NCBI GenBank assembly: GCA_003598975.1 | Contig: QZIJ01000018.1 | Coordinates: 1-32,171, forward strand | Reading direction: 5' to 3' | Length of the DNA: 32,171 bases | Source of the DNA: Anaerolineaceae bacterium | GTDB lineage: Bacteria; Chloroflexota; Anaerolineae; Anaerolineales; Villigracilaceae | Part shown: piece by piece, positions 3,757 through 23,740 of the stretch | Layout: each line of letters starts with the position of its first letter | Numbering within the stretch: position 1 is the first letter of the stretch | The notes under the pieces: model-generated | What the model was told of the DNA's origin: nothing | Database searches by the model: none | Seen by the model: the letters and a program-made list of their open reading frames with translations, nothing else | Translations under genes and position numbers: made by a program

Positions 3757-3818
3757 AGCAGAAATGACATTGGATGCCAGTGGGATGTTGTTGGGTAAAT
3801 CGCCAATTTGTCGGTTAA

Positions 3819-3852
3819 ACGGTGGAGCGGGATGACAATCCCGCTCCACCGT
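3819..3852 (-). terminator. Hairpin after the PadR/DUF2812 operon
   Basis: A perfect inverted repeat with 14-base arms (ACGGTGGAGCGGGA) and a 6-base loop lies 35 bases past the DUF2812 stop codon. On the minus strand only three T residues follow, so it is a weak intrinsic terminator or a dispersed palindrome serving as one. Confidence 0.55.
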
Positions 3853-3886
3853 TGGTGCGTGGCCGCCAGAATTTTCCGACCTGACC

Positions 3887-4872: not shown

Positions 4873-5583
4873 ATGCAACGTCCCCTCATTGGAATCACCG
4901 CCCGTCACGTCAACACAAGTGAAGGACTTCCCGCCGTGCGGATTCTGCGCGCCTATGTGACCGCCATCGTGGATGCGGGCGGCGCGCCGATCCTCATCCC
5001 GCCCGAACTGCCCGAAGGCTGCTGGCGCGTCCTTCTGGACCGATTGGACGGGGTGCTGTTTTCTGGTGGCGCGGACATCGGCCTCGAGCATTTCGACGGC
5101 GAGCCGCATCCCACCGTGGATGTGGAACCCGTCCGTGACGCGCTCGAACTGCCTCTCCTGCGCGCCGCCGTGGACGCGGACAAACCCCTGCTGGGAATCT
5201 GCCGCGGCTTCCAGGTGATGAACGTGGCCCTCGGCGGGACGTTGTACACGCACATCCTCGACCAACTTCCCAACGCGCTCCAACACGATTGGCATGACAA
5301 GCCGCGCGACACCCTCGCCCACTCCATCCGCGTAGAGGAGGGGACGCGTCTCGCGGAGATTCTCGGCGCGCCACTGTTGCAGGTGAACAGCCTCCATCAT
5401 CAGGGCATTAAGGATTTGGCTCCCAGCCTGAAAGCGACAGCCTATTCTCCCGACGGTCTCATCGAAGGCATCGAACTCCCCAATCACAAATTCGCGCTGG
5501 CCGTACAGTGGCATCCCGAATGGATGAGGAGCCACGAGGAGATGAGGAGGTTGTTCAGGATGTTTGTGGAGGCGGCAAAGTAG
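4873..5583 (+). CDS. Gamma-glutamyl-gamma-aminobutyrate hydrolase family protein (peptidase C26)
   Basis: Class I glutamine-amidotransferase-fold hydrolase like PuuD, which cleaves gamma-glutamyl amides such as gamma-glutamyl-GABA in polyamine breakdown. The 236-residue product shows the nucleophile Cys110 in GICRGFQ, the oxyanion region FSGGADI (63-69), HHQ (175-177), and the His214/Glu216 pair in VQWHPEW. Length matches the family. The ATG at 4873 has AAAGGAAA upstream and the family consensus (RPLIGIT) starts directly after; the longer frame from 4837 would begin upstream of the -10 box. No polyamine gene lies nearby, so the natural substrate is uncertain. Confidence 0.88.
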   Translation: MQRPLIGITARHVNTSEGLPAVRILRAYVTAIVDAGGAPILIPPELPEGCWRVLLDRLDGVLFSGGADIGLEHFDGEPHPTVDVEPVRDALELPLLRAAVDADKPLLGICRGFQVMNVALGGTLYTHILDQLPNALQHDWHDKPRDTLAHSIRVEEGTRLAEILGAPLLQVNSLHHQGIKDLAPSLKATAYSPDGLIEGIELPNHKFALAVQWHPEWMRSHEEMRRLFRMFVEAAK

Positions 5584-5621
5584 TCAGAAACCCGTTTTCT
5601 CCGAGAAAACGGGTTTCTGAC
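5583..5621. repeat. Perfect palindrome with 19-base arms after the peptidase C26 gene
   Basis: The arms read GTCAGAAACCCGTTTTCTC and its complement, separated by one base. The first arm begins on the last base of the stop codon at 5581-5583. It would form a strong hairpin in either direction, but no T-run follows, so it is better called a dispersed palindromic repeat that may also stop transcription. Confidence 0.75.
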
Positions 5622-5638
5622 TCGCGAAAAATACAACG

Positions 5639-8384: not shown

Positions 8385-11300
8385 TCATTTTCCTTCCACA
8401 ATCCTCACCTCTTCCTCGCTCAACCCATACAACTCATAAACGAGACTGTCAATCTGTTCATCCACGGACTTGATCTGCCGCTCGTACACATCCTGCTCGG
8501 ACTGAGTCTGCGCGCCCGCTTTGGACTTGTGCAATTCCAGCATATGACTCACCAGCGTCACCATTTTGTCGTGCTGGGATTTTTCGGCGGGGTTGGTGAA
8601 GTCTATGGCGCGGATGGGGAGTTGTTCGATAAACTGTTTGTTCGCGGCGAAATAGCCGCCATGAAAAGTTGTCGAAACTTGTTTCAAATAGAAATTGAGC
8701 AAGCGAGAGTTCAACAAGCCACACAAGTACAAATAACTGCCCTTACTCTCGTTAGTGGTTACTCCGTACCCGCCAGTGGTTACATTGATGAAATAAAAGT
8801 TGTCTCCCGTATCATAGTATGTACTCAAGTCTGTAATCATATACGGAATAAGCAGTTTTGCTTGTTCCCACATTCCCAAATTCTGATTTCGCCCAAAGCG
8901 ATACCATTGAGAATCTTTGAAAGCGCCTTTTTCTCGACCTTCGAGAAGTCTTTTATTGCTTTCAAGATATGCCCATGCCAGTGGATATTTGGATTCCAAT
9001 TCTTTGGCATTTAAAAGAGTTGCGCCATTTTCTGTGACGGCGTATGGGAAAAGAACGTATGCGGTTGTTTTTGCCCAATACCGTCCAATGCTTCCACTAC
9101 GTATCACTTTGCGCAATATACCCTTTTCAAGTTTTAGCCATTCTCCAAGTTCTTTTGAAAAAACGGAGATTGTTTTCCCTTCATCGTCTTTGAATTCCTT
9201 GAAAAGAAATACTGTATCCGCGCTAGTAATTGGACCTTGAAAGATTCTGTCTGTCACATCTCCCAACTTCACAGGCATTTGACTTAACTTCTCGAATAAC
9301 CCCGCGCCTTCGCCAACCGTGAAATTCCATTCGCTGTCAGTCACGTTCACGGCGGCAATGCGCCCAGAGACTTCCGAGTTCTTTAAGAACTCGGAAGTCT
9401 GGGTTGCCTGCTCTCGCCACGCGCCCAAATTCTGCACGCGCACCATTTCAAAATCATTATTGCCTTTTTTGTCCATGAACAACAAGCAAGTATAAGTTGT
9501 CGCGCCATCGAAAACCTGCTGGTCGCCAAAGTGAATCACCTTGCCAAGATGTTTTCCATCTGCGATCAGCCCGCGCAGGCTCGCGCCGTATTGCGAATTG
9601 AAAAATTTGTGAGGCAGGATGAACCCCATGCGTCCGCGTTCGTTCAATAGGCTCAACGCTTTTTCGACAAAGACAACGTAAATATCGTAGTTTCCTGCTT
9701 TGGCAGATTGATAAAGCTCCTTGTAAATCTCCACTTCCAGCGGAGCCCACTCCTTCATAACCTGTATGCGAATATAAGGCGGATTGCTGATGATTGCATC
9801 AAATCCTCCATTCTCCATGATTTCCTTGAATCCTGATTTCCAATTAAACGCATTGACGCGCTTCATCTCCGCCGCGTCTGCAAACATCTGCCCCGCAAAA
9901 TAATCTGTCCCAATCAATGAATTTCCATTCTTGATATTCTCGCTCAGGTCAGGCAGAACAGACTGGTGAAAGAGCGTACGTTCCTCCACCAACTCGCCTT
10001 CGCGTAAATCTTCGAGCGCCTTCAACGAGAGCGAGAAGCGTGTCACCTCCACGGCCTGCGGGTCAATGTCCACGCCGAAGAGGTTGTTCTTCAGAATCTC
10101 GCGCTTGAGTTTGGCGGTCAGGCGAATCTGTCCGCTTTCATCACGGTAGAACGATTCGCGGTCGCGTTTTTCTTTTCCTGCGCGCGCGAAATAATCCTTG
10201 TGCCATTGGATTAACCTGCTGTACGCGCCGAGCAGGAACGATCCGCTTCCACAGGCGGGATCAAGGATTTTCAATTTGGCAACGTCTGCGGGAGTTAATT
10301 CCCTTTTTGAACCGCGAAGCCCGCCAAGGTCGCCAGGATTTAATTCTTTCTTTGCGCTCTTCGCGTTCTTTGCGGTTAATTCTGAATCGGGGTCGAGCAA
10401 GTTCCCCAACGTATTCTCGACAATGTACTCCACGATGTATTGTGGGGTGTAATACACGCCGCCCGCCTTGCGCACCTCGGGCTTTTCCTCGATTTTCACC
10501 TGCTTCTCGGTGGTGCGGACGACGCGTCCTAAAAAGCGTTCGTAGATCGTGCCGAGAATTTCCACGGGCAGAACCGCAAAGTTATACGGCGAGTTTTCGG
10601 GCTGCAGGTCGTGGACAATCTCGCGCACCACCTTGTTCGACACCGTTACCGCTTCCAGTTCAGGACGCGGCGCGAAGATACTTCCGTTGTAAAAGATGTT
10701 CAACTCGTCGAAGATGGATTGGCAGGCTTTGAACCAGCCGGTGGCGTCTTCGGAGAGTCCGCTTTTTTCCACGGTCGCGGCCAGTTCGCCCAGATAATCC
10801 TTGTCCACTTCACGGTCGCTGAGGGCTTTGATGAACACGAGACGGTCGATCAACAACTGCACCGCCGCCGTGATCAATTCCCCGTCCGCATGTGGATTGA
10901 ATTTCTTCATGTCCTTCGCCAGCAGGACGCGCCAGCCGTTCTTCTCATCGTCCATTTCGGCGAGGAAGGCTTTATCGGGCGGAATGCGGTTGGCTTTTAC
11001 TTTCTGCGGCGAGAGATACATAGACCATAACCCGTAGGGGCGGGGTCGCCCCACCCTGGGCGAGAGAACCTCGCCCCTACGGGAATCGTTCAACACATTA
11101 TTTCTCTCGAACAACTCCCACAACTCATCGAACTTTTCAATGTAATCCGTGTACTTCCAATCAATGACCCTGAAGTTGTTCACGGCTTCGGGCTTGGCCG
11201 CGAACAACGTGCAATCCAGGACGATGAACTCTTGAAAGTCCGTGAGAATGGCGAAGTCAATTTTTTCGGAGGGCTTGCTGTTCTGCGTGGAATAGGCGTA

Positions 11301-11624
11301 CGAATACACCTGATACAGCCAGCGGGGATCCTTCATTGAGTACTTGACCTGCTTGGCGTCCATCACCAATACATCGCGCCCGTCCAGGTTCAAAATGTAA
11401 TCGGGACGCAGTCCCTTTTTATTCGTGACTTGCACCTTGAATTCGTAATGAGCGTGTGAAAGCCCTTCGTTCTCCGTGTTCCAATTCAAATAGCGGAACA
11501 GCGGACGAATGAAATTATTCTCGATCTGCGCTTCTGCCGCTTTTTCAAGCGTCGCTTCGTGCGCGCGAAAATCTTCCACGAGTTTTTGGATTTTCAGGCG
11601 GGCTTCTTCTTTGGTGAAGGTCAT
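8385..11624 (-). CDS. Type IIG restriction-modification protein (Eco57I-like, N6-adenine methylase)
   Basis: Single-chain restriction enzyme and methyltransferase, 1079 residues. An N-terminal nuclease domain has RPDYILNL (73-80) and VMDAK (87-91), a PD-(D/E)xK-like core as in the type I HsdR/IIG nucleases. A helical region follows (about 200-385). The methylase has GVYYTPQYIVEYIV (389-402, motif X), DPACGSGSF (455-463, motif I, AdoMet binding) and SNPPY (613-617, motif IV, catalytic). The C-terminal third is a TaqI-like target recognition domain. No separate S, M or R subunit lies beside it. GGGAG precedes the ATG at 11624 and a TAAAAT box lies at 11649-11654. Three repeat elements are read in frame, at residues 181-198, about 415-444 and 742-752, all near domain borders. 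Whether it still cuts DNA is open. Confidence 0.9.
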   Translation of the reverse strand: MTFTKEEARLKIQKLVEDFRAHEATLEKAAEAQIENNFIRPLFRYLNWNTENEGLSHAHYEFKVQVTNKKGLRPDYILNLDGRDVLVMDAKQVKYSMKDPRWLYQVYSYAYSTQNSKPSEKIDFAILTDFQEFIVLDCTLFAAKPEAVNNFRVIDWKYTDYIEKFDELWELFERNNVLNDSRRGEVLSPRVGRPRPYGLWSMYLSPQKVKANRIPPDKAFLAEMDDEKNGWRVLLAKDMKKFNPHADGELITAAVQLLIDRLVFIKALSDREVDKDYLGELAATVEKSGLSEDATGWFKACQSIFDELNIFYNGSIFAPRPELEAVTVSNKVVREIVHDLQPENSPYNFAVLPVEILGTIYERFLGRVVRTTEKQVKIEEKPEVRKAGGVYYTPQYIVEYIVENTLGNLLDPDSELTAKNAKSAKKELNPGDLGGLRGSKRELTPADVAKLKILDPACGSGSFLLGAYSRLIQWHKDYFARAGKEKRDRESFYRDESGQIRLTAKLKREILKNNLFGVDIDPQAVEVTRFSLSLKALEDLREGELVEERTLFHQSVLPDLSENIKNGNSLIGTDYFAGQMFADAAEMKRVNAFNWKSGFKEIMENGGFDAIISNPPYIRIQVMKEWAPLEVEIYKELYQSAKAGNYDIYVVFVEKALSLLNERGRMGFILPHKFFNSQYGASLRGLIADGKHLGKVIHFGDQQVFDGATTYTCLLFMDKKGNNDFEMVRVQNLGAWREQATQTSEFLKNSEVSGRIAAVNVTDSEWNFTVGEGAGLFEKLSQMPVKLGDVTDRIFQGPITSADTVFLFKEFKDDEGKTISVFSKELGEWLKLEKGILRKVIRSGSIGRYWAKTTAYVLFPYAVTENGATLLNAKELESKYPLAWAYLESNKRLLEGREKGAFKDSQWYRFGRNQNLGMWEQAKLLIPYMITDLSTYYDTGDNFYFINVTTGGYGVTTNESKGSYLYLCGLLNSRLLNFYLKQVSTTFHGGYFAANKQFIEQLPIRAIDFTNPAEKSQHDKMVTLVSHMLELHKSKAGAQTQSEQDVYERQIKSVDEQIDSLVYELYGLSEEEVRIVEGK
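9368..9400. repeat. In-frame palindrome C within the restriction gene
   Basis: A perfect inverted repeat with 16-base arms (AGACTTCCGAGTTCTT and its complement) and one central base. It is 33 bases long, equal to 11 codons, and is read through as QTSEFLKNSEV at about residues 742-752, between the methylase and the target recognition domain. Confidence 0.75.
10294..10382. repeat. In-frame MITE-like element B within the restriction gene
   Basis: Inverted ends AACCGCGAAG (10310-10319) and CTTTGCGGTT (10368-10377, nine of ten match) bound a 68-base segment rich in GCGAAG/CGCAAAG blocks. The 8-base sequence GTTAATTC occurs at both flanks (10294-10301 and 10375-10382), the latter overlapping the end of the inverted repeat, and TTAATTC occurs again at 10340-10346. 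The segment is read as an Ala/Lys/Gly-rich insert (about residues 415-444) just before methylase motif I. The form resembles small non-autonomous elements. Confidence 0.7.
11031..11083. repeat. In-frame palindrome A within the restriction gene
   Basis: A 53-base imperfect palindrome starting CCCGTAGGGGCGGGGT and ending ACCTCGCCCCTACGGG (one mismatch in 16). It is read in frame as SRRGEVLSPRVGRPRPYG at residues 181-198, between the nuclease domain and the helical region. The arginine/proline/glycine-rich insert differs from the surrounding protein. Confidence 0.78.
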
Positions 11625-11658: not shown

Positions 11659-11698
11659 AAAAAAAAGACCTGACGGGTTTTACAAAACCTGTCAGGTC
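11659..11698 (-). terminator. Intrinsic terminator of the acylase gene
   Basis: On the minus strand the arms GACCTGACAGGTTTT and AAAACCCGTCAGGTC (one G-T pair) form a hairpin with a very short loop, followed directly by a run of eight T. It starts seven bases after the acylase stop codon. This is a textbook rho-independent terminator. Confidence 0.9.
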
Positions 11699-11704
11699 TC
11701 ACAG

Positions 11705-23230: not shown

Positions 23231-23284
23231 TTGGACAAGATTGAGGCGCTTGCCTCAGCACTTTCAAAGAAAGGAGAAAATATC

Positions 23285-23440
23285 ATGTTATTCGCACCGA
23301 AAGAAAAGGGACAGGGTCTGGTTGAGTATGCGTTGATCCTCGTTCTGGTTGCCATCGTTGTTATTGCCGTTCTGATGTTGCTTGGCCCGATCATCGGCAA
23401 CGTCTTCTCGACCATCAACGACAGCCTCGGCGGCCTTTAG
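23285..23440 (+). CDS. flp: Flp-type type IVb pilin, copy 1
   Basis: Major subunit of the Tad pilus, 51 residues. The short leader MLFAPKEKG is followed by QGLVEYALI, which matches the Flp cleavage rule: cut after Gly9, with Gln at +1 and Glu at +5. One hydrophobic helix (about 15-38) completes it, and the tail is SLGGL. AAAGGAG precedes the ATG at 23285 by nine bases. Its own promoter and terminator flank it. The copy 145 bases downstream is identical in 48 of 51 residues, although 23 of the first 48 codons differ. Processing needs a prepilin peptidase, not found in this window. Confidence 0.95.
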   Translation: MLFAPKEKGQGLVEYALILVLVAIVVIAVLMLLGPIIGNVFSTINDSLGGL

Positions 23441-23528: not shown

Positions 23529-23584
23529 AGGCTTTACTCTGGGATGGCATCAGAGAATTCTCAAGCGGAAAGGAGGTGAAACCC

Positions 23585-23740
23585 ATGTTGTTTGCCCCGA
23601 AGGAAAAAGGCCAGGGCCTAGTCGAGTATGCGTTGATCCTTGTTTTAGTCGCCATTGTTGTCATTGCGGTTTTGATGCTTCTCGGACCGATCATTGGCAA
23701 CGTTTTCTCAACCATCAATGACAGCCTCTCCAGTTTCTAA
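23585..23740 (+). CDS. flp: Flp-type type IVb pilin, copy 2
   Basis: Second Tad pilin of 51 residues, with the same leader, cleavage site (after Gly9) and helix as copy 1. Only the last three residues differ (SLSSF in place of SLGGL), although almost half of the other codons have changed synonymously. The ribosome site AAGGAGGTGA is stronger than that of copy 1. Its own terminator follows. A pilus made of both subunits, or differing use by condition, is possible. Confidence 0.95.
   Translation: MLFAPKEKGQGLVEYALILVLVAIVVIAVLMLLGPIIGNVFSTINDSLSSF

Follow-up and report, generated by a model that had tools for sequence, protein, structure and literature searches.

A putative mobile GTAG REP dimer read in frame in a linker of a predicted type IIG restriction-modification enzyme from an Anaerolineaceae bacterium

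A 53-base palindrome that lies in frame within a gene for a predicted type IIG restriction-modification enzyme very probably represents a non-autonomous mobile GTAG REP dimer, gained in this lineage and able to survive with the reading frame kept and at a site within a disordered inter-domain linker. The window analysed here, by which the whole 32,171-nucleotide stretch of Anaerolineaceae bacterium contig QZIJ01000018.1 is meant, carries the following features of interest.

8385..11624, minus strand: predicted type IIG restriction-modification enzyme of 1079 residues (Pfam, PADLOC, Foldseek, motif)
11031..11083, strand ".": 53-base palindrome, being a 47-bp core plus CCC/GGG (own reverse complement, shuffles, copy alignment)
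11034..11056, plus strand: first GTAG REP, with GTAG, an 8-bp stem with one mismatch and a 3-nt loop (copy alignment)
11057, 1 nt: spacer between the two REPs (sequence)
11058..11080, minus strand: second GTAG REP, inverted (head-head), with a 3-nt loop and an 8-bp stem whose closing pair is G-T
10296..10394, minus strand: insert in the second linker, residues 411-443 (DPDSELTAKNAKSAKKELNPGDLGGLRGSKREL), orthologues having mostly 4 residues (orthologue alignment)
9368..9400, minus strand: third element, a 33-nt coding palindrome read as QTSEFLKNSEV (scan, homologue alignment)

The palindrome and its host gene

Alignment of positions 11031-11083 with their own reverse complement gave 12 matches, one mismatch and three matches, that is, arms of 16 bases, and this stretch encodes residues 181-198 (SRRGEVLSPRVGRPRPYG) of the uninterrupted 1079-codon minus-strand frame. 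The near-perfect palindrome in an open frame described by an earlier, sequence-only reading was borne out by this self-alignment. When the window was scanned for palindromes whose 16-base arms matched at 15 or more positions within a span of 33-60, five distinct places including this one were recovered, and none was found in 60 dinucleotide-preserving shuffles, a result by which a chance palindrome was rejected. Folding of the coding strand of the insert gave z = -3.3 and none of 200 shuffles was as stable. Further near-perfect palindromes were observed outside the restriction gene at 3817-3854, 5581-5623 (perfect arms of 20 bases) and 11666-11699, the last directly upstream of the restriction gene start, and 145-nt direct repeats at 23284-23428 and 23584-23728 were 83% identical and 300 nt apart.

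The host protein matched the Pfam families Eco57I (1.9e-45), TaqI_C (2.9e-07) and N6_Mtase, and the PADLOC model REase_MTase_IIG (7.8e-202). A PD...DAK motif was read by eye in the nuclease part, where D75 and K91 are the same in all 27 aligned rows. Nuclease, N6-adenine methyltransferase and recognition parts are therefore combined in one chain, the nuclease being assigned by its motif and by weak fold matches, and the host is a predicted type IIG restriction-modification enzyme. A structure model of residues 1-640 had a mean pLDDT of 73.8 and a pTM of 0.57; its best Foldseek matches were PglX/BrxX, DrdV, BsaXI, BpuSI and MmeI with TM-scores no higher than 0.31, so these fold matches support the enzyme class and nothing beyond it. 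Stretches with pLDDT below 50 included residues 186-196, within the first insert, and 428-439, within the second. The first of these low-confidence segments separates an N-terminal nuclease-like domain from a helical region, as had been proposed from the sequence, and the two other elements previously noted in the same gene correspond to the palindromic or repeat-like stretches at 10296-10394 and 9368-9400.

Structure and genomic copies of the GTAG REP

Judged by its sequence, the 47-bp core at 11034-11080 consists of two 23-nt GTAG REPs that form a head-head dimer around a 1-nt spacer. Both units begin with GTAG, which forms the foot of a stem-loop, and their 8-bp stems and 3-nt loops fall within the 5-13 bp and 2-20 nt given for GTAG REPs in Table 1 of PMC3733652. 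The stems are flawed by a C-A mismatch in the left REP and a G-T pair in the right one, and the left mismatch tells against the reading of the element as an inserted REP dimer. The palindrome does span 53 bases as first described, but the common unit is only 47 bp because the outer CCC/GGG is absent from the other aligned copies, with the exception of one 27-bp copy that has GGG on one side.

The genome is represented by a draft assembly of 3.94 Mb that is 84% complete. Many genomic copies, which the sequence-only reading had named as support for an inserted element, were found in it. A 67-base query gave 29 matches at E<=10, nine of which covered the whole 47-bp core (the window being counted and its own minus-strand match excluded). 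A two-foot pattern with GTAGGGGCG at each end occurred at 14 places, comprising five 47-bp dimers and nine copies of 27-29 bp, and a single-unit pattern gave 23 matches. The latter fits the second REP and misses the first because of the stem mismatch in the first. The repeats thus occur both as singles and as dimers with GTAG ends outside. Reversed control patterns, for both the two-foot and the single-unit form, had no match in this genome. Across the family sample the two-foot pattern was present in 116 of 150 genomes, and a control pattern occurred once or twice in some genomes.

Several copies lie within Pfam matches of other open reading frames, namely MoeA (L002), homocysteine methyltransferase (L020) and GMP synthase (L129), and another fell within an MmeI-like enzyme (L011), in a C-terminal domain whose Pfam match was below cut-off. 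Other copies were outside long open reading frames, near gene starts or in doubtful open reading frames. The presence of GTAG REPs inside unrelated open reading frames argues for general tolerance over a role specific to the enzyme.

Linker 1 among orthologues

Searches for further orthologues detected the N-terminal part of the enzyme in eight of 396 genomes of a class sample and eight of 152 family genomes, the window's own genome being counted in both. After duplicates L028, L029 and L030 had been dropped, 11 distinct orthologues spanned the site, and none of the 11 had the 18 insert residues, an absence which had also been put forward as support for an insertion. A conserved native linker was rejected on this basis. 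L024 has the first five of the 18 residues and no others because another GTAG dimer sits there. A linker of five residues was present in L023, L027, L032, L122 and L123, and one of nine residues in L119, L120 and L121. The three other orthologues had longer inserts, each of a different kind: 21 residues in L024, encoded by a degenerate dimer of GTAG units that belongs to another subtype and begins at the same codon as the dimer of the window; 18 residues in L022, encoded by a CGTCCTTCG...AGGACG repeat; and 33 residues in L036, encoded by a GTCATTGCGAG repeat. The insert of L022 gave 27 matches at E<=1 in its genome (G137), six of them besides itself below 1e-4, and that of L036 gave 61 in G001, with at least 18 of those listed besides itself below 1e-4. 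These matches show both types of insert to be dispersed, although many of the matches were short. The fold signal of the L022 insert was weak (z -1.6, with 14 of 200 shuffles equally stable).

These data bear on whether the palindrome might be a native linker, a chance arrangement or an assembly error. High G+C, an Arg/Pro/Gly-rich translation and the draft state of the assembly would favour such an origin, but comparable palindromes were lacking in the shuffles described above, full-length copies 83-87% identical are present elsewhere in the assembly, the insert is absent from orthologues, the frame is open throughout it and like inserts recur in other genomes, so that we regard this explanation as extremely improbable.

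In a tree built from N-terminal codons with the linker excluded, all nine inner branches were strongly supported. The window paired with short-linker L023, L036 paired with short-linker L027, and L022 paired with L024, their inserts differing. Parsimony would place about four gains of a linker-1 insert among the 12 genes, or three gains and one replacement. The codons for NDS and those for GLWS lie 48 nt apart in the window versus 15 nt in L027 and L032. The element does encode 18 residues, as was originally stated, but the net gain relative to the 5-residue orthologue linkers is 11, and the orthologue linker alignment ruled out a clean insertion of 53 bp and 18 residues. A clean gain of 47 bp would throw the gene out of frame, indicating loss or replacement of a portion of the earlier linker; about 14-15 nt of it were probably affected, in the insertion event or a later one. 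An exact empty site was not recovered because the nearest relative is only 83.5% identical, which also counts against the reading as a REP-dimer insertion.

Candidate transposases

Three Y1 transposases were detected by Pfam in the genome, and none of the three had GTAGGGGCG within approximately 1.5 kb. The arrangement of a RAYT flanked by its own REP, as expected of a REPtron, was accordingly found at none of them, which weakens the case for a mobilized REP dimer. Among 29 Y1 loci of the family, GTAGGGGCG was nearby only in L111. Two RAYT-like open reading frames of the same genome, however, carry the unit inside, namely L021/L141 (1260-1826, minus strand) and L126 (1136-1798). Both were missed by the Pfam Y1_Tnp search and scored below cut-off with the NCBIfam model REP_Tyr_transpos. 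Homologues of the L021/L141 frame were present in 82 of 152 family genomes. A total of 31 RAYT loci were examined (30 from the homologue search plus L126), of which L146, L155, L160 and L165 were unread; the unit was located between HUH and Tyr in 25 of the 27 readable loci, L154 and L162 being without the exact unit. By eye, the Y1-transposase gene of L056 was seen to adjoin CCCCGAAGGGG-type repeats and that of L058 to have GGTGCGTCGCACC-type inverted repeats around it, both in this genome.

These observations suggest a route by which the dimer could have reached the restriction gene. A RAYT (TnpA-REP, an HUH/Tyr single-strand nuclease) with the same REP in its own gene is the likely mover, the element probably moved as single-stranded DNA, and insertions that broke the frame would have been removed by selection.

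Other linkers of the restriction gene

The insert in linker 2 of the window gave a fold with z -2.6, one of 200 shuffles being equally stable, and it has the appearance of what we take to be a dispersed repeat. Among 11 distinct genes, linker 2 consisted of four residues in eight, and different long inserts were present in the window, L024 and L027, each of which has a sister free of the insert on the N-terminal codon tree. The folds of the L024 and L027 inserts were moderate (nine and six of 200 shuffles equally stable, respectively). Several other small indels gave no fold signal in the shuffle test.

Linker 4 is situated immediately before the GFDxxIxNPPY motif. No insert was present there in the window or in L022, L023, L024, L027, L031 and L036. 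Different hairpins were observed at this site in L119, L120, L122, L123 and L124, with none of 200 shuffles equally stable; the hairpin of L032 was weaker (four of 200). In L121 (1-2850, minus strand), approximately 170 residues in linker 4 match the Y1 transposases of Pfam (7.6e-12, at residues 650-750 within the part of the frame that was read), so that a type IIG gene here has a Y1 domain embedded in frame and its Eco57I match is split in two; with NCBIfam REP_Tyr_transpos this domain gave 4.6e-13, under the cut-off.

The in-frame domain of L121 is one of several observations that would fit a linker acting as a preferred target of RAYTs or other enzymes, for example through older hairpins exposed as single strands. 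Unrelated repeats are found at one codon boundary, the GTAG dimer of L024 begins at the same codon as that of the window in spite of its other subtype, and the frequency of gains estimated above would also agree with targeting. Survivorship in a few tolerant places of the protein would look alike, however, and no common target sequence was found; targeting of this kind appears unlikely.

Beyond the window, the coding palindrome that forms the third element was also present at the same linker in L022, L023, L031-L035, L037, L039-L047 and L049. Among 26 homologues spanning linker 3, perfect arms of at least 12 were seen in 17 besides the window, L042 had 10 and eight had six or fewer, five of these eight having no more than 40% identity in the linker-3 segment. 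The palindrome is found in most homologues more than 50% identical in that segment. The loop of the palindrome itself holds another hairpin-like insertion (GTCCCCGTAGGGGGGAC) in L037 and L049. The linker-3 pattern was detected at 22 of 170 loci, and matches away from the type IIG linker (L061, L097 and L043:249-281) indicate that this element is also dispersed.

Changes in the two arms were analyzed in 15 elements including that of the window, with omission of L040 and L046 (the same element as in L041 and L047), of L037 and L049 (owing to the extra loop insertion) and of rows without a palindrome. The arms of one gene differed by no base in 13 of the 15 elements and by one base in the other two, versus a mean difference of 1.96 when the left arm of one gene was set against the right arm of another. 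Two-sided changes were observed in six of 15 pairs (17 cells) and none of 500 shuffles gave a count as high, although the rows had for the most part been selected because they carry the linker-3 element and the pair counts consequently lean towards structure. For further pair types, the count among the 15 elements did not rise above the level of the shuffles (259 of 500). On a tree computed from the flanking protein sequence, in which seven of 14 inner branches are weak, arm positions 11-12 showed at least eight changes. In these alignments the arms of the linker-3 palindrome change together, which could be explained equally by correction of one arm by the other, by renewed insertion or by selection on the hairpin.

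Selection on the hairpin touches on a further explanation, that inserts are kept for function, with linker length or an mRNA or DNA hairpin tuning the enzyme, for example its cleavage-methylation coupling or its expression. The recurrence of hairpins in linkers 1-4, and the retention and co-varying arms of the linker-3 palindrome, are in keeping with such a role. Eight of the 11 orthologues, however, are without a long linker-1 insert, the inserts that do occur differ in sequence and length, and the GTAG REPs in unrelated open reading frames point to general tolerance. A functional origin is therefore considered quite improbable, and the insertion of a mobile GTAG REP dimer is the preferred reading of the linker-1 element, within a picture of recurrent REP-type insertions of which those that kept the frame were retained in linkers. 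On a broader scale, it is conceivable, though somewhat less likely than not, that type IIG genes of Anaerolineales-like Chloroflexota collect palindromic mobile elements, with unrelated hairpin repeats gained in frame again and again in at least four linkers, in one case together with a REP-transposase-like domain, and with the linker-3 palindrome kept near perfect by arm correction or re-insertion, such that the dynamics of hairpin DNA would write protein.

Relation to known elements and significance

The sequence-only reading knew of no named family of this form in Chloroflexota. That view has to be given up, since GTAG REPs fit the element and have been described both in Chloroflexi and within open reading frames (PMC3733652), and an unnamed family was ruled out by the literature on GTAG REPs (PMC3733652, PMC6006769). 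GTAG REPs were described in 2013 by Di Nocera et al. as 24 families that include intragenic and chloroflexal ones (PMC3733652). The element resembles them as portrayed there in its GTAG foot, short stem, 2-3-nt loop and copies inside open reading frames, and, matched by structure, it is like some of the families in being a head-head dimer with a 1-2-bp spacer; unlike the GTAG REPs of that account, its host is a type IIG restriction enzyme. The same source proposes flexible linkers and reports different REPs at about the same recB site in two Xanthomonas species (PMC3733652).

In the classification of Quentin et al. (2018, PMC6006769), TnpA-REP/RAYT genes of subclass 2.4 carry in-frame REPs, generally between HuH and Tyr. 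The two RAYT-like open reading frames described here, with their in-frame internal unit, are like subclass 2.4 genes in build, and the unit shares with subclass 2.4 REPs a stem base of three G-C pairs and double-foot versions; unlike the case given there, it is also found in a restriction gene. Single-strand cleavage of GTAG REPs by TnpA-REP has been shown for Stenotrophomonas (PMC8266576), whose REPs likewise are 23-nt units in which GTAG is followed by an 8-bp palindrome with a 3-nt loop. Sequence and host differ, and the activity was shown in that system. As in REPINs/BIMEs (PMC3116915), two inverted REPs form the unit, although the spacer here is 1 nt. In-frame palindromes in coding genes are also a feature of the Rickettsia palindromic elements as presented in PMC3733652, which equates intragenic repeats of R. 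conorii with RPE-4 and RPE-6 and keeps the longer RPE-1 apart; the comparison with Rickettsia RPEs is one of analogy.

Among the titles and openings of abstracts listed, a literature search yielded no precedent in a restriction enzyme, no Rickettsia elements at one fixed place, and no instance of the four-linker pattern, of an in-frame transposase domain or of a co-varying coding palindrome. What stands out is less the element itself, which belongs to a known class, than the multi-linker pattern. With the element, a phenomenon already on record is extended to an enzyme of phage defence in Chloroflexota. Of greater weight, if true, would be the pattern as a whole, which would allow in-frame gains of mobile hairpins to be counted event by event on the tree of one gene family, and the co-changing coding palindrome makes it possible to test whether protein linkers are shaped by correction within hairpins or by re-insertion.
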